Positions 1 through 31,498 of a stretch of 64,000 nt of DNA are shown here, piece by piece (position 1 is the stretch's first letter; each line of letters opens with the position of its first letter). The stretch comes from Gammaproteobacteria bacterium. GTDB lineage: Bacteria > Pseudomonadota > Gammaproteobacteria > Ga0077536. Under the pieces are notes generated by a model. It saw only the letters and a program-made list of their open reading frames with translations, had not been told where the DNA came from and searched no databases. The position numbers were made by a program, and so were the translations under genes. The stretch covers positions 186,001-250,000 of the forward strand of contig JAJFJQ010000028.1 in NCBI GenBank assembly GCA_021773835.1. The letters run 5' to 3'.

Positions 1-1
1 T

Positions 2-430
2 TTTTATGTGCTCGAAAACCCAGACGAGCGGCAACACCGACATCTCATTTGCCGATTAACCGAAAAGGCGTGGCGTGAAGGACGGCTCGTCCATATCCGC
101 TGCGACAGTACACAGAGTGCGGAAGCGCTCGATGACCTTCTTTGGACCTATAAAGACACATCGTTTTTACCACACGCAAGACAGGACACCGCCGACGCCA
201 CGGAAGTCCCGGTAACGCTTGGCCACGACGGCCAAATGCCTACCACCAGCGATGTCTTGATAAATTTAGGCCTTGAGGTACCGGAATATTTCAGCCGTTT
301 CGAACGTGTAATGGAAACGACCGGCAGTGACCCGGATGCGCGCAACGCGGCACGTGAACGCTACCGCTTCTATCAGGAACGCGGTTACGCGCTCAATACT
401 CATAAATTGGATCCGCATGATGGCCGATGA
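2..430 (+). CDS. holC: DNA polymerase III chi subunit (HolC), 5' partial
   Basis: Chi is a clamp-loader accessory subunit that links DNA polymerase III to single-strand binding protein. The reading frame is already open at the left edge (Phe-Tyr before the first GTG at 8), so the true start lies outside the window. The family hallmark [17 protein letters not shown] is near residues 40-57 of the visible part. It is followed by the typical Asp-Val-Leu-Ile-Asn-Leu strand and the C-terminal Arg-Tyr-x-Phe-Tyr helix. The stop overlaps the next gene by 14 bp, the usual holC-valS neighbourhood. Identification is secure; only the N-terminus is missing. Confidence 0.9.
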
Positions 431-3400
431 TCCCAAATCCAACAGCGTCGATACCGAGGGCTTAGATAGCACGATCGACCAACTCGAATTGCTACTGGAA
501 AGTAAACGGGAGTTATTAAACGAAGTAAACGCCGGAATGCGCCCACCAAGCGGCGTCAAGATCCCGCGTTTGACCGATAAGGTCGTTGCCGTACGCGATT
601 TAAAATTTTCCGTTGCCGAGCCAAAAATTACTGCACGCGATGATTCGAACAGTGATTCGATTGAGTCGCAACCCGATATAACGGCGCTAATCGATGATGT
701 TAAGCGGGCCGTCGGCGAAAACATGCAGCAAGCGTTTGCCGAATTAAAAGCCGACGTCGTGGCTGAGATTAAGCGCGAGGTGATCGGCTCCGTAGGCAAT
801 AATGGACATCGCGATCTAACCGACAGTGCCGAAACCCCGGCACCCATCCCACCGCCAACCACGGAACTTCAAAAGGTGCCTAAACAACCGTCCATGGACA
901 AGACCTACGACCCGCACACGATCGAATCTGATCGTTACGAACACTGGGAAAACGCCGGCTACTTCCAACCGCGTGGTGCCGGCGAACCGTATTGCATCAT
1001 GTTGCCGCCACCAAACGTCACCGGCTCCCTACATATGGGACACGCCTTCCAAGACACGTTAATGGACGCGCTAACCCGTTATAAGCGCATGCAAGGCATG
1101 CGCGCGTTATGGCAATGCGGAACGGATCATGCCGGGATCGCAACGCAAATGGTTGTAGAGCGTCGTCTGGAACAAGACGGAATTTCTCGCCGTGAAATGG
1201 GTCGTGAAAAATTTATCGACGCTGTGTGGCAATGGAAAGCTGAATCTGGTGGCACGATCACTAAGCAACTTCGCCGCATGGGTGCGTCGATGGACTGGAG
1301 TCGTGAACGGTTTACTTTGGACGAGGACCTGTCGCACGCGGTAACAGAGGTATTTATCCGCCTTTATGAAGAGGATCTTATTTATCGCGGGAAACGACTC
1401 GTCAATTGGGATCCCGTTCTGCGCACCGCCATCTCAGACCTAGAGGTCATTGCGGAAGAAGAGAACGGCAATTTGTGGCACATCCGTTACCCCCTGGCTG
1501 ACGGTGCGGGTCACGTGGTTGTCGCGACCACCCGACCGGAAACGATGCTTGGGGATACTGCGGTCGCGGTACATCCAAATGATGATCGCTACCGCCGGAT
1601 CATTGGAAAATCTATTCAACTCCCACTGTGCGATCGCACCATCCCAATCATTGCAGACAATTATGTGGATCCCGAATTTGGCTCCGGCGCCGTCAAGATC
1701 ACCCCCGCGCACGACTTTAATGATTATGAGGTTGGTAAACGACACGGACTGGCGCAGATCAACGTGTTCACCGACAGCGCAGCTATCAATGACAACGCAC
1801 CGGCGGCATATCGAGGACTCGACCGGTATACCGCTCGCGAACGCGTCATCGCCGACCTCGAGGCGTTGAATCTCGTTGCACGCATCGATGCGCACAAACT
1901 GACGGTACCGCGTGGCGACCGCTCACGTGCGGTGGTCGAGCCCTATCTAACCGATCAGTGGTTTGTTCGTATCGAGCCGTTGGCAACGCCCGCGATTGCG
2001 GCGGTTGAAAACGGCGACATCCGCTTCGTCCCAGAGAACTGGAGCAAGACCTATTTTGAGTGGATGCGCAATATCGAAGACTGGTGCATTTCTCGACAGC
2101 TATGGTGGGGCCACCGCATTCCAGCATGGTACGACGACACTGGGAACATTTATGTCGGCCACGATGAGGCCGATGCGCGAACACGGAACAATCTAAGCGC
2201 CGACGTTGCCCTGCGGCGCGACGAGGATGTCCTAGACACCTGGTTCTCTTCGGCCCTGTGGCCATTCTCGACCCTGGGCTGGCCGGATCAAACCCCGGAA
2301 TTAGAGACCTATTATCCGACCAGCGTGTTGGTGACAGGCTTCGACATCATATTTTTTTGGGTCGCGAGAATGATCATGATGGGTCTCAAGTTCATGGGTG
2401 ATGTTCCTTTTAAAGAGGTCTACATCCATGGCCTGGTGCGCGACAACGACGGCAACAAGATGTCGAAGTCGAAGGGCAACATCCTCGATCCGCTAGACCT
2501 CATCGACGGCATCGATTTGGAACCCTTGGTGCGGAAACGCACCGCTGGTTTGATGCAACCGCAAGACGCGGAAAAGATCGAACACGCGACGCGCAAACAA
2601 TTCGCTGAGGGCATTAACAGTTATGGCACCGATGCCCTGCGTTTCACCTTCGCCTCAATGGCGACGCAAGGGCGAGATATACGTTTCGACCTCGGTCGGG
2701 TCGGCGGTTATCGAAACTTTTGCAACAAAATTTGGAATGCCGCCCGCTTCGTGATGCTGATGTGCGAGGATCATGATTTATCGGATCGCGACAGAACCAT
2801 CCAACATGGTCTCGCAGAAAATTGGATCCGATCTCGCTTACGCCACCGCTTGGCCCAAATTAAAGAAGGCTTTGAGACTTATCGATTCGACCTATCGGCA
2901 CAAGCCATCTATGAATTTATTTGGGATGAATACTGCGATTGGTACATTGAGTTCGCGAAGATCGGTTTGAATGATCCGTCGACTACAGACTCGGAAAAAT
3001 TCGCGATGCGGCGTACCTTGGTCGAAATGCTGGAAACCAGCCTCCGTGCCTTGCATCCATTTATGCCCTACATCACAGATGAGATCTGGCTAAAGGTCGC
3101 ACCGCTGCTCGGCAAGGGCGGCAAAACTATCATGCTCCAGCCGTTTCCAAATCCGACGAGCTTGAGTCATGTCCCGCAAGCCGAGCAAGCATTCGAATGG
3201 ATCCAGAGCTTTATCCTCGGCGTACGCCGAATCCGCGCAGAGAATAATATCGAACCGAATCGACGTGTCGGGATACAGGTTCAGGGCGGATCCGCTGCTG
3301 AACGTGTGTGGCTAGAATCTTACGAGCTATATATTCGGCAACTTGCACGCGCCGACTCGATCGAACGAGTTTTGAGTAACGACGGCGATGCGGCAAGTGC

Positions 3401-9057: not shown

Positions 9058-10300
9058 ATCCCACGCCAGAACCCTCGAAGCACGATTTGACGTCGAACGT
9101 GTCCGGCAGGACTTCCCGATCTTGCAAGAATCCATCAACGGCCACCCATTAATTTATCTCGACAATGCGGCCACGACCCACAAGCCACAAGTCGTTATCG
9201 ACACGATCAGTAAGTTCTATCAATCGCAAAATGCGAATATTCACCGGGGTGTGCATACGCTAAGCCAGCGCGGGACCGATGCGTATGAAAACGCACGCAC
9301 CATAGTACAAAAATTCATTAATGCACGATCGCCAGACGAAATCGTTTTTACACGCGGCACGACCGACTCGATTAATCTTGTGGCCAATTGCCTGGCGCGC
9401 TATCTACTAGCTTCCGGCGACGAGGTCCTGATTTCCGAGTCTGAACATCATTCTAATATTGTGCCGTGGCAAATGATCTGTGAGCAGTTTGGGTCGAATC
9501 TCATTGTCGCGCCGATCAACGATGACGGCGAGATCTTAGTTGACGAATTTGAAAAACGTCTATCGTCTAAGACCAAGATAGTTTCGCTTGGACATATTTC
9601 GAATGCGCTTGGAACAATTAATCCAGTCACGCAACTCACCTCACTCGCGCACGCAGCGGGAGCCACCGTGGTGATCGACGGCGCACAAGCAGTAGCGCAT
9701 GCGCTAGTCGACGTCCAAGCCATCGGTTGCGATTTCTACGCATTTTCCGGCCACAAGGTATTCGCACCCACCGGTATTGGCGCGCTCTACGGGAAACGCG
9801 AAATACTGGAGGCTATGCCCCCCTACCAAGGCGGCGGGGACATGATCAAGGAGGTTCGCTTCGACAAAACGGAATATAACGATGTGCCGTACAAATTCGA
9901 AGCAGGAACTCCGCACATCGCTGGCGCCATCGGTCTCGGCGCAGCCTTAGATTACGTCATGAGCTTAGATTTTACGGCAGCGATCGACTACGAACACGAA
10001 TTGCTCGACTACGCAAGCGCGCGTCTAAGTGAAATCGACGGCGTACGAATTATAGGATCCGCAGCGCACAAGGCGGCCGTGTTGTCTTTTGTAATTGACA
10101 ATATCCATCCGCAAGACATTGGACTTCTTTTGGATAATCAAGGTGTCGCTGTTCGAACAGGTCACCATTGTGCGATGCCGGTTATGCAACGCTACGGACT
10201 CTCAGGGACGGTCCGCGCATCTCTGTCGATCTACAACACTAGATCTGAAATCGATAGCTTTATTGACGCCGTCATTAAAGCAAAAACCATGCTCGCTTGA
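9050..10300 (+). CDS. sufS: Cysteine desulfurase SufS
   Basis: This PLP-dependent class V aminotransferase-fold enzyme takes sulfur from cysteine and passes persulfide to the Suf scaffold. The PLP lysine is in FSGHKVFAPTGIGALYG. The catalytic cysteine loop is TGHHCAMPVMQRYG, and IYLDNAATTHKP is near the N-terminus. I prefer GTG 9050, inside the sufD stop region; TTG 9041 would add three residues. No sufE or sufU partner is encoded next to it, although type II desulfurases usually need one for good activity. About 416 residues, normal for the family. Confidence 0.94.
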   Translation: MTESHARTLEARFDVERVRQDFPILQESINGHPLIYLDNAATTHKPQVVIDTISKFYQSQNANIHRGVHTLSQRGTDAYENARTIVQKFINARSPDEIVFTRGTTDSINLVANCLARYLLASGDEVLISESEHHSNIVPWQMICEQFGSNLIVAPINDDGEILVDEFEKRLSSKTKIVSLGHISNALGTINPVTQLTSLAHAAGATVVIDGAQAVAHALVDVQAIGCDFYAFSGHKVFAPTGIGALYGKREILEAMPPYQGGGDMIKEVRFDKTEYNDVPYKFEAGTPHIAGAIGLGAALDYVMSLDFTAAIDYEHELLDYASARLSEIDGVRIIGSAAHKAAVLSFVIDNIHPQDIGLLLDNQGVAVRTGHHCAMPVMQRYGLSGTVRASLSIYNTRSEIDSFIDAVIKAKTMLA

Positions 10301-10321
10301 TTGCCAAATACTGAGACTACC

Positions 10322-10882
10322 ATGGACAACTCGCCCGATTTTAACGAACCGATCAACCTGTCACGAGATTGCGAGGCAATACTGATTCCGGAAGGCGCCC
10401 CGATTACGCTTAAGGAAGGAACCGCGGTGTACGTAACTCAAGCACTTGGCGGTTCGGTAACCGTGAATGTCAATGGAAACTTGGCTAGGATCCCGCCGAA
10501 CAACGTCGATGCGATTGGGCTTGAAGTAGAAACGCTAACGGCGGATAGCGCACCCACCGGCGACGGCACGGTCGATGAAGCAATGGTGTGGGATCAATTG
10601 CGCACTTGCTACGATCCCGAGATACCCATCAATATCGTCGAGCTTGGATTGATATACCGGTGCGAAATAAACCGCCTTGACAGCGGCGGTAATCAGGTCG
10701 ACATCGACATGACCTTAACCGCCCCGGGTTGCGGGATGGGACCATTTTTAGTTGATGATGTGGAACAGAAGCTAGCGCAGATTCCAAACGTATCTGAAGT
10801 CAAAGTAGAGCTCGTTTTCGATCCCATTTGGAATCCGGAAATGATGTCCGAGGCCGCACGCCTGCAAACCGGCTTGTACTGA
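10322..10882 (+). CDS. sufT: Fe-S maturation protein SufT (MIP18/DUF59 family)
   Basis: SufT is a DUF59 protein implicated in maturation of Fe-S enzymes, especially when demand is high. The 186-residue protein has an N-terminal beta-rich part (LSRDCEAILIPEG, TLKEGTAVYVTQALGG) and a C-terminal MIP18 domain with CYDPEIPINIVELGLIY, the reactive cysteine in LTAPGCGMGPFL, and FDPIWNPEMMSE. I chose ATG 10322 over the upstream in-frame TTG 10301, which would start right after the sufS stop. It closes the suf operon; a 205 bp gap follows. Confidence 0.88.
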   Translation: MDNSPDFNEPINLSRDCEAILIPEGAPITLKEGTAVYVTQALGGSVTVNVNGNLARIPPNNVDAIGLEVETLTADSAPTGDGTVDEAMVWDQLRTCYDPEIPINIVELGLIYRCEINRLDSGGNQVDIDMTLTAPGCGMGPFLVDDVEQKLAQIPNVSEVKVELVFDPIWNPEMMSEAARLQTGLY

Positions 10883-25261: not shown

Positions 25262-25410
25262 AGATGGTGGCGACGTTGGGCGCGATAATGAACAATGTTT
25301 GACGAGTATATCGTTGGCTTAAGGCGCACCACAACAGAGTTGAACACCGGTCATTGTATTGATGAAACAGTGTCCTGCATCACGGCGCCAATATCGCTAG
25401 ACTATCGGTG

Positions 25411-26178
25411 ATGAAAATTTTTGCCACCTACAATATTAAGGGCGGAGTCGGCAAAACCGCGAGCGCAGTTAATCTTGCTTATTTGTCGGGGCAGAGCGGT
25501 TTTCGGACGCTCGTGTGGGACCTTGACGCACAAGGTGCCGCAACCTATTACTTTCGCGCGCCACCCCACATTAAGGGTGGCAGCGAACGCTTACTCCGGC
25601 GTAAACGTAATCTCCCAAAAGCTATTCGCGCTACCGCCTACCTCAACTTGGATTTAATTCCCGCCGATTTCTCGCTGCGTAACCTCGATATAGACCTGAG
25701 CTCAGAGAAAAATCCCGAGCGCCGGTTGCGTAAACTGTTGAGCTCAGTGAAGGACAACTATGATGTCGCGATCTTAGATTGCGCGCCAACAATCTCGCTC
25801 GCCTCAGAAAACGTTATCCATATGTCGGATTGGCTGTTGGTGCCGTTAATACCAACGCACCTATCGATTCGGGCCTACGATCAACTCAAAGAATTTTTTG
25901 TCTCCAATGCGCTCGATACGAATCATTTATTGCCATTTTTCTCGATGGTCGATAAGCGAAAGCGCTTACATCGAGACCTGATTGTCGAGTTTGCAGCAGG
26001 GAACCCCGAGCTCCTACGGACCTATATTCCCTATTTGAGTCAGATCGAACAGATGGGCGTTCATCGCGCACCCGTTGGCGCTTATGCCGGAACTGGCGTT
26101 GGTGGACGGGCATTTGACGCGTTATGGCAGGCAATAATGATTCGTACCGTACTGGCACCCCAAGTGGGATCGTCATAA
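25411..26178 (+). CDS. Orphan ParA-family ATPase
   Basis: A 255-residue deviant-Walker ATPase (MinD/ParA class). It has KGGVGKT near residues 10-16, DLDAQGAATYYF as the A' motif, and Walker B VAILDCAPT. No parB gene or parS-like repeat lies nearby, so this is not a chromosome partition pair and its cargo is unknown. GTG 25408 directly precedes the ATG and is an alternative start. It ends 4 bp before queG and is probably cotranscribed with it. A second, divergent ParA is encoded on the other side of queG. Confidence 0.82.
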   Translation: MKIFATYNIKGGVGKTASAVNLAYLSGQSGFRTLVWDLDAQGAATYYFRAPPHIKGGSERLLRRKRNLPKAIRATAYLNLDLIPADFSLRNLDIDLSSEKNPERRLRKLLSSVKDNYDVAILDCAPTISLASENVIHMSDWLLVPLIPTHLSIRAYDQLKEFFVSNALDTNHLLPFFSMVDKRKRLHRDLIVEFAAGNPELLRTYIPYLSQIEQMGVHRAPVGAYAGTGVGGRAFDALWQAIMIRTVLAPQVGSS

Positions 26179-26182
26179 GACA

Positions 26183-27304
26183 ATGACCAAGCCTTCCGAG
26201 GAACCGGATCAGCTACCGGATCCGGTAGTACTGAGAGACCAGATCCGTGCGTGGGGTCTTGAATTGGGATTCCAGCAAGTCGGGATCACGGGAACTGAGC
26301 TAGCCGAAGATGAGCGGCGGTTAGAGTTGTGGTTGGATCAGCACCACCACGGTGAGATGAATTACATGCAGAAGCACGGGTCGATGCGCTCGCGACCGAC
26401 AGAGCTGATGCCGCAAACGATATCGGTAATATCGACCCGAATGAATTATATGTCGGAGCATGGCGAGGACCCGATCGCAACGCTAGCGGATCCAGCAAGC
26501 GCCTATGTTTCGAGGTATGCGCTGGGTCGCGACTATCACAAGCTCATGCGCTCACGTCTGAAGAAGCTGGGACAAAGAATCAGTGAGGTAATAGATAAAT
26601 TCGATTATCGCGTCTTTACCGACAGCGCGCCCGTGCTTGAACGCGCTCTTGCCCGCAAAGCAGGCCTCGGGTGGTTCGGCAAACACTCGAATTTAATCAG
26701 CCGCGACGACGGATCATGGTTTTTTATCGGCGAAATTTATACCGATCTTCAATTACCTTTCGACCCTCCATTCAACGACGACCATTGCGGACGATGCGTG
26801 GCGTGTATCGATGTATGCCCCACTCAAGCCATTGTCGCACCGTACGAGGTGGACGCCCGCCGTTGCATTTCGTATTTGACGATCGAGTATCGCGGCATAA
26901 TACCGCTGGAATTCCGAACGTCGATTGGTAACCGGATTTTTGGCTGTGACGATTGTCAGCTTGTGTGCCCTTGGAATCGGTTCGCGAAACTGAGTACGGA
27001 AAAGGATTTTAGCCCGCGCTTCAAGCTCGATTCATGTTCCTTATTGGAGCTTTTTACATGGTCGGAGAGTGAGTTTAATCAACGTACCGAAGGCTCGGCG
27101 ATAAGGCGAGTTTCCTACGATCAGTGGTTACGTAATCTAGCCGTCGCGTTAGGTAATGCGCCACCTTCGACCGTGGTCCTTGAGGCACTGGAAAGTCGGC
27201 TAAATACTGCGTCCCCTCTAGTCGCAGAGCATATTACGTGGGCGATTGAACAACAAAAACATGGTGCGGAAATCACCGAACCGGTGAACAAGCAGATATT
27301 CTGA
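26183..27304 (+). CDS. queG: Epoxyqueuosine reductase QueG
   Basis: It reduces epoxyqueuosine to queuosine in tRNA, the last step of queuosine synthesis, using cobalamin and two [4Fe-4S] clusters. The 373-residue protein has VFTDSAPVLERALARKAGLGWFGK (active-site Asp in the first part), the ferredoxin-like CGRCVACIDVCP near residue 202, and the second cluster motif CDDCQLVCPWN. C-terminal HEAT-like helices follow. The queC gene and the end of queE, earlier pathway steps, are at the right end of the window. It is convergent with a ParA gene, with a 2 bp gap. Confidence 0.94.
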   Translation: MTKPSEEPDQLPDPVVLRDQIRAWGLELGFQQVGITGTELAEDERRLELWLDQHHHGEMNYMQKHGSMRSRPTELMPQTISVISTRMNYMSEHGEDPIATLADPASAYVSRYALGRDYHKLMRSRLKKLGQRISEVIDKFDYRVFTDSAPVLERALARKAGLGWFGKHSNLISRDDGSWFFIGEIYTDLQLPFDPPFNDDHCGRCVACIDVCPTQAIVAPYEVDARRCISYLTIEYRGIIPLEFRTSIGNRIFGCDDCQLVCPWNRFAKLSTEKDFSPRFKLDSCSLLELFTWSESEFNQRTEGSAIRRVSYDQWLRNLAVALGNAPPSTVVLEALESRLNTASPLVAEHITWAIEQQKHGAEITEPVNKQIF

Positions 27305-27306
27305 AA

Positions 27307-27987
27307 CTAGCTAGCCGCGGACTCGGACTTTGAAGTCAACTGCTCTGAGTCGAGCCACGTTAATAGTGGTTGCCAGGACTCGACATCGGTTTTTACGCGA
27401 TATTGCGGTAGCTCAAAAATTCCTTGTCCCAATCCAGCCGCATGGACGTAAGCTTGGGCGTCACGCAAGCTAGTAATGAATGGGATCTCCAATGCCTTTA
27501 GAAAACGCAGGAGTGCTTGGTAGACGCGTGTATTCTTTTTAACCCGATTGGCAACAACACCAATGCGTCCATCGCGCGGTTTGATTTTTGCGCACAACAG
27601 CAAATCGCCAATACAGCGTGACGCCGCATGAATATCAATTTCGGACGGCAATACTGGAATCACCACCGCATCCGCGTCGCGCGTAAATTCTTCAAGCGTT
27701 TCCCGCGTGGTACCTGCCGGCGTATCTACGATAACGTGCGTCGCGTCCAAGGAAGTATGCAACTGCCATGATCGCGTTGTTCGTGTACTACGCTCGAATG
27801 CCTTTACCAGGTCTATCGACGGACGATCGGCCGGTCGCGCGGCGATCCATCGAGCGCTAGACCCCTGTGGATCGTAATCCATCAGTACTACCTTACCCCC
27901 GGCGTTGGCGTAATAGGCGGCCAGGTTGGTGGCGAGGGTGGTTTTTCCGGACCCACCCTTGGGGTTCATTACTACAACCTTACGCAT
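27307..27987 (-). CDS. Second orphan ParA-family ATPase
   Basis: A 226-residue ParA/MinD-class ATPase with MNPKGGSGKTTLATNLAAYY at residues 7-26 (contains the deviant Walker A), MDYDPQGSSARWIAAR, and Walker B HVIVDTPAGT. It is shorter than true ParA and lacks a helix-turn-helix. No ParB is encoded nearby. It is divergent from the acyltransferase-hydrolase gene across a 226 bp AT-rich gap, which hints at shared control. Its function could be positioning of a membrane or granule cargo, but that is a guess. Confidence 0.82.
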   Translation of the reverse strand: MRKVVVMNPKGGSGKTTLATNLAAYYANAGGKVVLMDYDPQGSSARWIAARPADRPSIDLVKAFERSTRTTRSWQLHTSLDATHVIVDTPAGTTRETLEEFTRDADAVVIPVLPSEIDIHAASRCIGDLLLCAKIKPRDGRIGVVANRVKKNTRVYQALLRFLKALEIPFITSLRDAQAYVHAAGLGQGIFELPQYRVKTDVESWQPLLTWLDSEQLTSKSESAAS

Positions 27988-28213
27988 ACCCAGATCAGCT
28001 CGCTTCCTTACCGAAAGTAACTGCCGAATCCCTCATTTCCTTATACATGGCTATCACTTTTTTAGGGCTTCTTCGATGCTGTATTCAGCGGTCGAATAAG
28101 CGTGCGATGCGACTATCATAAGTAATCCGCCACGGCGTTGCCACGTGAACATTTTTAGACCATCCTTTTATACCATTGTATCGAATTAGTATTTACCGCA
28201 AGAGAATTACCAA

Positions 28214-30526
28214 ATGGAAGACACGCGGGACCTAAATCAACAGACTTACGACTGGTGCGTACGCGCTTTTGATCGAGTTAAAAAATTACTCGGCGTGCGA
28301 ATAAAACTACATCATGAACATGGCCAAATCGATCAAGGCGATGTATTCCTTTTTAACCATTTTGCGCGGATGGAAACATTTATCCCACAATATTTGATTT
28401 ATCAGGAAACCGGCGCGTTCTGCCGATCAATCGCGGCTGCTGAGTTTTTTAAGGGTAACGATCGATTCACACAACTCCTATACGATGTCGGCGCAATCCC
28501 GAGTGACCACCCGGATCTCATGGCCGTACTTGCCAGCGACATTCTCAAAGGACGTAAAATCGTGATCTTTCCGGAAGGCGGGATGGTAAAAGATCGCCAA
28601 GTATTGGACGATAACGGAGAGTATAGCGTTTACTCACGCTCTGCCGACGCCCGCCGGAAACATCATACCGGAGCCGCACGACTCGCAATCGGCCTACAAA
28701 TAATCAAACTTAGGGTGTTAGAAGAACATCGGCGCGACAACCGAAAGCTATTGGCCGCATGGACCGAGCAGCTTGGACTTCCTTCCACCGATGCGCTTCT
28801 AAAAAATGCAAACCGTCCGGTAACGATCGTACCGGCAAACATTACCTTTTATCCGTTACGTATTAGCGACAACATTCTCAGACGCGGTGCCGAATTAATG
28901 CATGGCGATTTAAGTCGACGCGCTGTTGAGGAACTAATTGTCGAAGGAAATCTATTCTTCAAAGCGACTGATATGGATATCAGACTTGGTGACGCAATTT
29001 GCCCGCTAGATTCATGGGCTTGGTGGGAACAATTGTTGGCGACCTATCTAGCACGTCAAATATCAGCACCCAGAGATATTTACGACGGTGATTATCTGCG
29101 TGCGGAGGTTGTTCGACGAACCGCGACCAAGGGTCTACGAGCGAGTATTTCGCGGCTACGCAATCGCTATATGCGTGACATTTATAAAGAAGTAACCGTA
29201 AACACTAGCCATATCGCGTCCCAAGCGATACTAAACAGTGTAGAGAATGGCGATACGCGATTTTCATTGAGTGAATTTAAACTCGTTATCTATCTTGGTA
29301 TAAAAAAGCTACAACAGTATCGTCAAGTTCATCTTCACCGCAGTATTTGTAATCCAACCGTATACCGTGATCTTCTGAGTGCCGAAACACCGGAGCTAAG
29401 TCAATTTCTGCAATCGGCCGAAAATGCCGAATTGATAGAACTTCGCGAATCGGAGATAGTTTTTCTGGATAAGCTTGCTATCGATCACGGATTCGATTCT
29501 GTTCGCCTCGAAAACCCGATTGAAGTCTACGGTAATGAAGTAGAACCGATTAAAGAAGTCAGTAGCGCATTGGATACCGCGGTATCCGAACTTGAATCGC
29601 TTGGCCCACGGGACTACGCGAAGTTGAGTTTTGACGACGAATTGGTGGGATTCGAATGGGATAGGAGGTTTTTCGATAAACCGGAGCATCAGGAGATTAA
29701 CCTGCGTGAAACGGCTACCGAAGATCCCAGTCCATTTCTGCTCGAATCTGGGTCCGACTACGGCGTCTTGCTCGTACACGGTTTTCTCGCGTCACCGGCG
29801 GAAGTACGGGATTTTGGCAACAAACTTCATGAGGCGGGTTACACGGTACTTGGTGTACGACTAAAAGGCCACGGCACCTCACCGTGGGATCTGCGTGAAA
29901 GGAGTTGGCAAGATTGGTACGCATCGGTCGAACGCGGCTTGGATATAATTCGGGCGCTTTGCGGGCGAGTCTGCGTCGTTGGTTTTTCGACCGGGGGCGC
30001 CCTCTCATTGATGTTGGCTGCACGGAAAGTCGACCAGGTTGACGCCGCAATTTCCGTTTGCGCGCCGTTGAAATTTCGTAATAAGAATATGCGCTTCGTC
30101 CCGTTGATGCACGGCGCCAATCGGGTCGTTCGATGGTTATCGAAATATGAAGGGCTGATCCCATTCCGTCCCAACGAATCGGAGCACCCGCATATCAATT
30201 ATCGAAATATGCCGATACGAGGTCTCTATGAGCTCACCCGTCTGGTCGCCCAACTGAAAGAGGACCTCGAGTACGTGACCTGCCCAGTAAGCATCGTCCA
30301 AGGGGCCGAGGATCAGGTCGTGGATCCAGTAAGCGCAACCATCGCATATGAACGGATTGGAACGAAGGATAAGGAACTCCATTGGGTTAGTTCCGAGCGC
30401 CATGGGATCCTGAATGAAAACATTGGTGGAACGCATGGGCTGTTACTCGATTTCATCGCGAAAACCGCAAAGCGAGTCAATCCCAAGCAGGGCGATTTAG
30501 CTATTGGGCAGAAACTCGCGACTTAA
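28214..30526 (+). CDS. Acyltransferase / alpha-beta hydrolase fusion protein
   Basis: A 770-residue two-enzyme protein. The N-terminal third resembles PlsC-type acyltransferases: NHFARME with His49 and Glu54 (H-x4-E, where the family usually has H-x4-D) and FPEGGMVKDR at 119-128. A helical middle part of about 230 residues matches nothing I recognise. From about residue 514 there is a monoglyceride-lipase/carboxylesterase-like hydrolase: LLVHGF, GHGTSPWDLRERSWQDWY, nucleophile GFSTG with Ser592, and likely partners Asp700 (AEDQVVDP) and His730 (SERHG). No signal peptide is seen. Both active sites look intact, so one chain may both release and transfer acyl groups, for example in lipid remodelling. 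Confidence 0.8.
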   Translation: MEDTRDLNQQTYDWCVRAFDRVKKLLGVRIKLHHEHGQIDQGDVFLFNHFARMETFIPQYLIYQETGAFCRSIAAAEFFKGNDRFTQLLYDVGAIPSDHPDLMAVLASDILKGRKIVIFPEGGMVKDRQVLDDNGEYSVYSRSADARRKHHTGAARLAIGLQIIKLRVLEEHRRDNRKLLAAWTEQLGLPSTDALLKNANRPVTIVPANITFYPLRISDNILRRGAELMHGDLSRRAVEELIVEGNLFFKATDMDIRLGDAICPLDSWAWWEQLLATYLARQISAPRDIYDGDYLRAEVVRRTATKGLRASISRLRNRYMRDIYKEVTVNTSHIASQAILNSVENGDTRFSLSEFKLVIYLGIKKLQQYRQVHLHRSICNPTVYRDLLSAETPELSQFLQSAENAELIELRESEIVFLDKLAIDHGFDSVRLENPIEVYGNEVEPIKEVSSALDTAVSELESLGPRDYAKLSFDDELVGFEWDRRFFDKPEHQEINLRETATEDPSPFLLESGSDYGVLLVHGFLASPAEVRDFGNKLHEAGYTVLGVRLKGHGTSPWDLRERSWQDWYASVERGLDIIRALCGRVCVVGFSTGGALSLMLAARKVDQVDAAISVCAPLKFRNKNMRFVPLMHGANRVVRWLSKYEGLIPFRPNESEHPHINYRNMPIRGLYELTRLVAQLKEDLEYVTCPVSIVQGAEDQVVDPVSATIAYERIGTKDKELHWVSSERHGILNENIGGTHGLLLDFIAKTAKRVNPKQGDLAIGQKLAT

Positions 30527-30556
30527 TAGTGGCCCATAAAATCTAACCCTGTCGAT

Positions 30557-31417
30557 TTATCGCTGCAGCACCGCTACACCGGGGGTGACTCGTTCAAGCC
30601 AACCGCGAATTCGTTTAGCCACTTGGTCTTCGTAACCGTAGAACGTCGGTCCTGCACCGTCTATTTCCAGCTGTTCGATGCGTGTTCCGCGGTGACGATA
30701 TTTCGTTTTGCGCTTCTCTTTCAAGGCGATTGCGCCGCGATCGAGCGTACCAGCTATATCCAGGATCGGAATATCCGTTTCTTCCAATCTTGCATCCCAT
30801 TTGCCGAGACCGACAAATCCGGAAATTGCCGGCGACGCCTTTCCCACGATGTAGCTCATCGCATCGATTGCGCCTTCTGCATCGCCCAGGACCACAATGT
30901 TTTGGACTCCCATAGCAACTAAATATTCATATGCCGCATCCAGGCGTGGGTTTTCTTCTACGCTTTTTTCTTCGGCCGACAAGGTCGAATTCGATGGCGC
31001 TGGTTGAATCGACAGCACCGCCCAACCTGCGGCCGCGGCGATACGTGCTAAATTTTGGTGTAAGGGTCGTGAATCAACGATCCCACCCGACCAAATATTT
31101 ATAATGAGACCCCCGTGCGGGATCGCTTGATACGATTCTCGGTACATTGCGAGGAAGTTCTCGTTGGCGGATTTTAGCCAGCGAACTTCTCCGTAGGCCT
31201 CGGCCAAACTCAATCGTCGAGCGATGTCTTGCTCTCGTGCAGTGTGGCCTCCGGCCGCGCCACCGGCGTTCGGCATGGTCTGGCTAGCTGTCGCAATTTC
31301 CGGGTTACTATCTTCTACGGCGGGTTCAAGGTTCGGTGCAGCGGGTGCCGCTTCGATTATCGAAACCAGAACAACGGCGGCAATGATGGAGCCCGGACTG
31401 AAATTACATTGATTCAT
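30557..31417 (-). CDS. DUF3530-like secreted alpha/beta hydrolase-fold protein
   Basis: A 286-residue protein with an N-terminal hydrophobic segment (about residues 9-27, ending in APAAP), consistent with export. A low-complexity Ala/Glu-rich stretch and a hydrolase-like fold follow. Blocks seen are HGGLIINIWSGG, AAAAGWAVLSIQPAP and the elbow VVLGDAEGAID. The elbow position expected to hold the nucleophilic Ser reads Ala (G-D-A-E-G), so it is probably not a classical esterase. GTG 31435 is an alternative start giving six more residues; neither start has a strong ribosome site. It converges with the fusion gene. I assign the family by pattern only. Confidence 0.6.
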   Translation of the reverse strand: MNQCNFSPGSIIAAVVLVSIIEAAPAAPNLEPAVEDSNPEIATASQTMPNAGGAAGGHTAREQDIARRLSLAEAYGEVRWLKSANENFLAMYRESYQAIPHGGLIINIWSGGIVDSRPLHQNLARIAAAAGWAVLSIQPAPSNSTLSAEEKSVEENPRLDAAYEYLVAMGVQNIVVLGDAEGAIDAMSYIVGKASPAISGFVGLGKWDARLEETDIPILDIAGTLDRGAIALKEKRKTKYRHRGTRIEQLEIDGAGPTFYGYEDQVAKRIRGWLERVTPGVAVLQR

Positions 31418-31498
31418 AATTGAGGTTATCGGCACACATGCCTAGCGCCGTAGGCATTGTTTAGAAGGGCTAGGGTAACTCCACCGGCGACGGTTGTG

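Follow-up and report, generated by a model that had tools for sequence, protein, structure and literature searches.

A 64,000-nucleotide stretch of DNA from a Gammaproteobacteria bacterium (assembly GCA_021773835.1, contig JAJFJQ010000028.1, positions 186,001 to 250,000; here called the window) carries at 28214..30526, on the forward strand, a gene for a fusion protein of 770 amino acids, in which an acyltransferase with the predicted fold of a glycerol-3-phosphate acyltransferase (GPAT) is followed by a hydrolase resembling monoacylglycerol lipases (MGLs). We propose, with a probability of about one half, that it is an acyl-recycling enzyme, which would deacylate single-chain glycerolipids and re-esterify activated chains at the gate of beta-oxidation. 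Relatives of the protein carry the same fusion with conserved active sites, and some are encoded in beta-oxidation operons or are fused to a fatty acid ligase.

According to this proposal the protein would be soluble or peripherally membrane-bound. Its C-terminal lipase domain would remove the fatty acyl chain from a single-chain glycerolipid, either a monoacylglycerol or a lysolipid, and the freed chain would be activated by a long-chain acyl-CoA ligase, which some relatives encode in an adjacent gene or as part of the same chain. The activated chain would then be burned by beta-oxidation, or be returned to a glycerolipid acceptor by the N-terminal GPAT-fold acyltransferase. If both domains are active, and if their substrates and directions are those that we infer and both reactions draw on one lipid pool, a single protein, placed at the entry to beta-oxidation, would move acyl chains both ways between esterified lipid and the acyl-CoA pool. 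Acyl recycling appears to be the simplest mechanism, because the ligase fusions and the operon context tie together the freeing, the activating and the esterifying of an acyl chain. The original prediction, made from the window's letters alone, had offered as one option that the two domains could deacylate and reacylate one lipid. We favor that option, since both sites are kept and seven relatives have a ligase on the same chain.

The gene is one open reading frame from ATG to stop, with full-length relatives; the longest open reading frame listed on the reverse strand within it has 149 amino acids. Pfam matches in the 770-residue protein are Acyltransferase (PF01553) at residues 38-162 (27.2 bits, cut-off 23) and Hydrolase_4 (PF12146) at residues 518-736 (88.1 bits, cut-off 27), with no domain found between them, and in an NCBIfam scan none of the models listed attained its own cut-off. 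The single frame and the two domains bear out the earlier claim that an acyltransferase and a serine hydrolase share one chain, and the residues then named (H49-x4-E54, FPEGG at 119-123, S592, D700 and H730) were all found in place. The acyltransferase core, at residues 1-265 with an approximate boundary (28214..29008, forward strand, as are all parts that follow), contains the PF01553 match and has the GPAT1/PlsC fold in the N-terminal model. It includes the catalytic motif H49-x4-E54 (28358..28375) and FPEGGMVKDR (residues 119-128; 28568..28597), which by weak profile alignments is the counterpart of PlsB motif III, EGGRSRTG. A GPAT1-type C-terminal region with a winged-helix-like part is predicted at residues 266-448 (29009..29557) by structural alignment of the model to the GPAT1 structure 8e4y. 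It is followed by a helical linker at residues 449-504 (29558..29725) and by the MGL-like alpha/beta hydrolase at residues 505-745 (29726..30448), recognized by PF12146, sequence comparison to the PDB, Foldseek and VIA. The nucleophile of the hydrolase is Ser592 in GFSTG (29987..29989), and Asp700 (30311..30313) and His730 (30401..30403) complete its triad. Mean pairwise identity is 56% and 54% in the two catalytic parts, 42% in residues 266-448 and 38% in the linker, the least conserved part. No 19-residue segment of the protein has a mean Kyte-Doolittle hydropathy above 1.51. A scan of 27900-30620 yielded 4 promoter-like sites (3.2 expected) and 6 terminator-like sites (3.2 expected), and was uninformative.

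Scanning genome contigs gave 359 matching stretches. A relative is encoded in 347 of these, and the 80 best, which were retrieved, are the 80 relatives referred to throughout. They are 44-78% identical in the best segment, and their record titles name Gamma-, Alpha- and Betaproteobacteria, with the isolates Sedimenticola selenatireducens, Terasakiella pusilla and Methylomicrobium sp. RS1 among the carriers. Conservation was scored on 131 full-length loci, which after removal of repeats left 101 distinct sequences, the window's own included. In the acyltransferase half H49 is present in 100 of them (Tyr in one), E54 in all 101, E121 in 100 (Gln in one), G122 in 101 and K126 in 100; in the hydrolase half S592 and H730 are invariant and D700 is present in 100 (Glu in one). 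Judged by these alignments, both active sites are under constraint. Across 65 aligned sequences, pairwise identity in the acyltransferase part correlates with that in the hydrolase part (r 0.65), and 0 of 300 permutations reached a value as high. The notion that the protein is a chimera created by misassembly or a frame error has practically nothing to recommend it: no evidence in its support was found, the 101 distinct full-length sequences come in part from isolates (Sedimenticola, Terasakiella, Methylomicrobium), and the evolutionary distances of the two catalytic parts rise together, as the correlation indicates. The same fusion is found in many separate assemblies rather than in this contig only, and the catalytic residues are kept in 100 to 101 of the 101 sequences, so that the two objections foreseen by the original prediction, an artifact of assembly and an active site consistently degenerate in relatives, both fail.

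Some relatives are linked to fatty acid breakdown. For 23 of the 80, the match is followed within 300 nt by the start of a same-strand gene for a long-chain acyl-CoA ligase (20 loci) or a thiolase (3 loci). Of all 80 loci, 22 show FadD (1.6 kb away in L045 and 2.5 kb away in L049), 21 FadA, 20 FadB and 17 FadE, and in the 15 loci that have all four the order is ligase, FadA, FadB, FadE. NCBIfam assigned one example of each as a long-chain-fatty-acid-CoA ligase, an acetyl-CoA C-acyltransferase, a 3-hydroxyacyl-CoA dehydrogenase/crotonase and a FadE-type acyl-CoA dehydrogenase. The start codon of the ligase closest to the expected position lies 4-59 nt inside the end of the fusion gene in L058, L062, L070, L079, L080, L099 and L110, and 24-129 nt after it in L077, L078, L082, L095 and L106. 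The divergent L142 (30% identity) is placed after genes for a thiolase (best match FadI), a FadJ/FadB-type protein and an acyl-CoA dehydrogenase. These are of types other than those just described; the domain order of FadB is hydratase first at L142 and dehydrogenase first at L078. The genomes G667 and G216 each have a single strong 3-hydroxyacyl-CoA dehydrogenase domain (E below 1e-20), and it lies about 2.6 kb or less from the fusion, as does one of two such domains in G579; near the fusions of G000, G301 and G535 there were 0 of 3, 0 of 4 and 0 of 2. G667, G216 and G579 were picked after their neighborhoods had been seen, and thus illustrate the rarity of such genes rather than give a rate. 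A tree label 'fad' (31 of 79 rows, 5 changes) was not used, since it included seven Sedimenticola rows with an acetate-CoA ligase as neighbor; L142 carried the label 'nofad' in that tree, though it stands behind beta-oxidation genes.

This recurrent linkage to fatty acid activation and breakdown tells against a rather unlikely alternative, in which the protein is an ester synthase or transacylase: the lipase serine would take an acyl group from a membrane lipid and the acyltransferase half would make a neutral storage ester. There is a precedent of a sort in the plant phytyl ester synthases PES1 and PES2 of the ELT family, described in the text seen of PMC12048435 and PMC12526585 as chloroplast proteins that make phytyl esters and triacylglycerol and in which a single chain holds an alpha/beta hydrolase region as well as an acyltransferase. 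In those same excerpts, however, the acyltransferase is C-terminal and of the DAGAT family (PF03982), for which a scan of the window protein at E 0.1 listed no match. Overlap with the WS/DGAT family, weak evidence in itself, was confined to one genome, G541, with a match below cut-off (24 genomes with the fusion, 21 with WS/DGAT, about 1.4 shared genomes expected by chance; the lists were compared by hand and two draws of 369 were taken as the same genomes). The earlier suggestion that acyl chains might be moved onto a storage compound or granule thus finds no support here.

In seven of the 20 relatives with an adjacent ligase, acyl recycling would involve a single chain. At L084, L092, L094, L097, L098, L101 and L104, the loci with a computed fusion-ligase gap of about -1.8 kb, the frame runs on into the ligase without a stop or an N, to give in-frame fusions of 1313-1354 amino acids in the order acyltransferase-lipase-ligase. 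In three that were tested, Pfam found an AMP-binding domain of 290-312 bits behind Hydrolase_4, and the acyltransferase model passed E 1e-5 in one of the three. All seven have FNHFARFE, FPEGGMVKD, GFSxG and the ligase P-loop, as well as a complete triad. The ligase part of two that were tested best matches long-chain fatty acid-CoA ligase models, below the models' own cut-offs. A long-chain acyl-CoA ligase is the missing link of a cycle of deacylation and reacylation, and here it lies on the same chain. A tree of the acyltransferase-lipase part (20 rows) needs three changes of the label fused or split, and its starred branches force three; the ligase tree also needs three, of which its starred branches force only one. 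These changes argue that fusing or splitting probably happened more than once, gains and losses being indistinguishable. Two Methylococcaceae ligases form a long branch apart from the rest of the ligase tree, and the L062 ligase has other FadD models as its best matches, which suggests a ligase separately recruited in Methylococcaceae. A more ambitious form of the proposal, which we offer tentatively, is that lipase, ligase and GPAT-fold half make up a single-polypeptide turnover cycle that would deacylate, activate and re-esterify the same pool and, at the head of a beta-oxidation operon, serve as a keep-or-burn switch, having been assembled repeatedly with ligases and beta-oxidation genes that differ between lineages.

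An AlphaFold2 model of the family (65 sequences, mean pLDDT 85.3, pTM 0.84) was used to compare the hydrolase domain with known structures. Foldseek matched it to 5xks (E 8.5e-18), VIA matched an MGL (Z 33.7, 246 residues at 2.1 A) and the carboxylesterase of Bacillus stearothermophilus (Z 28.8), and a search of PDB sequences matched a bacterial MGL entry (E 2e-34). By this model the C-terminal domain is a hydrolase of MGL-type fold with a Ser-Asp-His triad. It shares fold, triad, GxSxG and about 30% identity with the bacterial MGLs (Bacillus H257, Geobacillus 12AMOR), whereas the solved chains of the latter have about 250-270 amino acids and consist of the lipase alone.

The acyltransferase half has HX4E as its catalytic motif. 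In the part of PMC6286764 available, H132 and E137 of LpxL, and E127 (with H122) of LpxM, matter for catalysis; PMC3087551 assigns HX4D to LpxL and HX4E to LpxM, so that, as far as those passages go, the two papers disagree on the motif of LpxL and not on HX4E being workable. Since His and Glu are described there as catalytic in LpxL and LpxM, HX4E appears to be a working variant and not a defect. A separate model of residues 1-499 (37 sequences, pLDDT 84.0) gave one Foldseek match below E 1e-3, to human GPAT1 (8e4y, E 4.5e-8). Among the folds listed by VIA, GPAT1 aligned with Z 17.9 and a root-mean-square deviation of 3.5 over 321 residues (1..448 of the model, 172..581 of the chain), followed by PlsC (Z 11.8, 192 residues), chain T of the complex I assembly entry 7zkq in row 3 (Z 11.5, 217 residues), plastid GPAT (Z 10.8, 219), PatA (Z 10.3, 167) and LpxM (Z 8.1, 170); winged-helix folds appeared at model residues 328-448 with Z 5-6. 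No more than 265 of the 321 aligned residues can fall within residues 1-265, which places at least 56 farther along the chain and suggests that much of the helical region, if not all of it, corresponds to the C-terminal region of GPAT1. The label 'PlsC-like' of the original prediction agrees with the PF01553 match above its cut-off, but is too narrow, given 321 residues aligned with GPAT1 versus 192 with PlsC; similarly, much of what had been called an unfamiliar helical region of 230 residues is predicted to be this GPAT1-type region.

Resemblance to GPAT1 and PlsB comprises the predicted fold over residues 1-448 and the H-x4-acid and EGG motifs. The differences are HX4E, the replaced arginines of motif III (see below) and a distant profile link: a comparison with one PlsB gave E 0.13 and with five PlsB E 0.041 (probability 1.3%), while scans of the window protein at E 0.1 list neither of the PlsB/GPAT models TIGR03703 and GPAT_C (PF19277), nor the PlsC/AGPAT model AGP_acyltrn (TIGR00530). 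GPAT_C had no match anywhere in G000, Pfam found no credible match in the middle region alone of four members, and hmmsearch of PDB sequences with the N-terminal profile returned a single irrelevant match (E 4.2). Sequence support for kinship with PlsB is therefore weak, the kinship with GPATs resting on the predicted fold, and for this reason, together with the TIGR03703 and PF19277 results, we speak of a GPAT1 fold and not of a PlsB. Short PlsB-like proteins with HRSN(M/I)DY and FPEGGLS motifs are encoded at L155-L157 (G016, G049 and G001; frames of 378-495 amino acids) and at G758:C8. Two that were tested fall far below the NCBIfam PlsB cut-offs, and they are perhaps an unnamed GPAT-like group; the match in a profile comparison with three of them (E 8.6e-4, probability 23.5%) is confined to 115 columns in the acyltransferase core.

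Several observations weigh against acyl recycling. No ligase or thiolase lies within 300 nt downstream in 57 of the 80 relatives, including the window's clade, although some of these lack flanking sequence, and the window gene itself, like its clade, has no ligase or beta-oxidation neighbor. Seven of the 57 have an acetate-CoA ligase upstream; in Sedimenticola (L048, L053, L055, L056, L063, L066 and L071) the fusion is directly downstream of that gene, on the same strand. All seven ligase-fused examples are metagenome-assembled. For the hydrolase, the metagenomic lipase LipS ties with the MGLs in VIA (Z 32.5), so that MGLs are not singled out. Glu156 of bMGL, which in the portion of PMC3829422 at hand contacts glycerol, is not clearly conserved in the fusion family; it aligns by sequence with H660, a variable position, which leaves monoacylglycerol specificity unproven. 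In the acyltransferase half, the weak profile alignment sets EGGRSRTG of PlsB over EGGMVKDR, with Met124 and Lys126 at the places of the two motif III arginines. The counterparts of these in GPAT1, R318 and R320, contact glycerol-3-phosphate (PMC11011501, text seen in part), and the acceptor of the fusion protein may thus not be glycerol-3-phosphate. Replacement of the arginines also tells against a GPAT that serves de novo lipid synthesis and carries an editing lipase, a quite improbable idea for which the predicted GPAT1 fold would speak. Moreover, in 14 genomes tested that carry the fusion, PlsY was found in 12 and a full-length PlsB in the other two, so that the fusion protein is hardly the first-step, housekeeping GPAT of its carriers. 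Finally, the most divergent member of the family, L143:5552-7669 in G541 (25% identity), has Tyr for H49 and Gln for E121 and an intact triad. Such a protein, along with the beta-oxidation operons, would fit a catabolic lipase that feeds beta-oxidation, its GPAT-like half serving mainly for membrane docking or as a sensor of acyl-CoA. We consider that unlikely, since a pure docking module should not need H49 and E54, with the near-complete conservation reported above.

Lipid deacylation, chain activation and re-acylation reside on separate proteins in E. coli, apart from the ligase-acyltransferase pair Aas, which carries a PlsC-type domain. A close comparison for acyl recycling on one chain is with this protein. 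As described in the sections seen of PMC11416262, Aas joins an acyl-ACP synthetase and an acyltransferase in one peripheral membrane protein that re-esterifies lysophospholipids, and LplT-Aas fusions exist. The seven ligase-fused relatives appear similar in logic to what is described there, with an acyltransferase and a fatty-acid-activating ligase on one chain; they differ in that a lipase is added, that the two fused ligases tested are of the long-chain acyl-CoA type, and that the acyltransferase half has a predicted GPAT1-type C-terminal region. Pfam found no ligase domain in the window protein, and the Aas-like combination of ligase and acyltransferase occurs only in those seven relatives. 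In human ABHD16A a hydrolase domain is accompanied by a predicted acyltransferase motif, but the motif, H189/D194, is in an endoplasmic reticulum membrane protein and not in a GPAT-fold domain (PMC9725753, as far as the text seen goes). In the cited passages on Aas, PES1/PES2 and ABHD16A, none of these proteins pairs a GPAT1-fold half with an MGL-type lipase. Among the papers listed in searches of open-licence PMC full texts, none was found to describe the present family.

The family is sparse yet broad. Among 58 genomes of relatives, the window's included, it was found in 24, as 19 full-length copies, 4 at contig edges and one truncated interior copy (G018). A sample of the class gave 24 of 369 genomes, counting the truncated G018 and divergent G541 copies, and a sample of the phylum gave matches in 6 of 398, one of them (G195) a chance match; the G195 locus (L117, E 8.8e-4) was dropped, as it had no match to the family at E 1e-5. 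A plasmid search returned 158 records with a match, none covering 80% of the protein. No stand-alone N-terminal half was seen, though a search less bound to the family profile might still find such forms. Seven of the 10 partial loci end at contig edges, and the other three (L024, L139, L144) are the same interior copy in G018, a genome given as 99% complete. That copy (L144, about 9639-10865) is a truncated fusion without the N-terminal half, interrupted by a stop, and is probably a decaying gene. For the near relatives L002, L007, L011, L013 and L015 one internal stop was first reported, and translations bounded by the match are stop-free, at 753-760 amino acids; L012 and L017 were kept though the translation ran beyond a stop near the end. 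Three loci from metagenome bins titled Klebsiella pneumoniae (L034, L039, L041) nevertheless group with the window's clade, and these organism names look wrong. L050, L054, L057 and L061, titled Acidobacteria or Polarisedimenticolaceae, and L058 (Nitrospinota) are placed among proteobacterial sequences; mislabelled bins or horizontal transfer could explain such labels.

Upstream of the fusion in the window are, on the forward strand, a ParA gene (25408-26178) and queG (26183-27304), an arrangement conserved in near relatives: among the 80 loci this ParA is present in 5 and queG just upstream in 8, all of them closely related to the window. A second ParA gene (27307-27987, reverse strand) lies between queG and the fusion; it is divergent from the fusion, and its start is 226 bp upstream of that of the fusion gene. 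A convergent DUF3530 gene follows the fusion (30557-31435, reverse strand); in 5 loci, the window included, this gene or a relative of it is next to the fusion or close by. The divergent ParA had led the original prediction to hint at positioning on a lipid body or granule. This ParA is an extra, second paralog of the window genome and is beside none of the 80 relatives in flanks of up to 6 kb, and a lipid-body enzyme positioned by it, for which only the adjacency in the window speaks, is very improbable. In six other genomes searched, the best ParA matches are single copies, 40-47% identical, on contigs other than that of the fusion; a copy in the window genome, at C21:399448, is similarly off the fusion's contig. 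Three genus-mates have one ParA each (43-45% identical), on another contig or in a genome free of the fusion.

If acyl recycling is correct, Proteobacteria would have in the fusion protein a single point of control between lipid, whether membrane or neutral, and the burning of fatty acids. A function would also be assigned to a protein in which Pfam and NCBIfam see only a generic alpha/beta hydrolase with a weak acyltransferase match.

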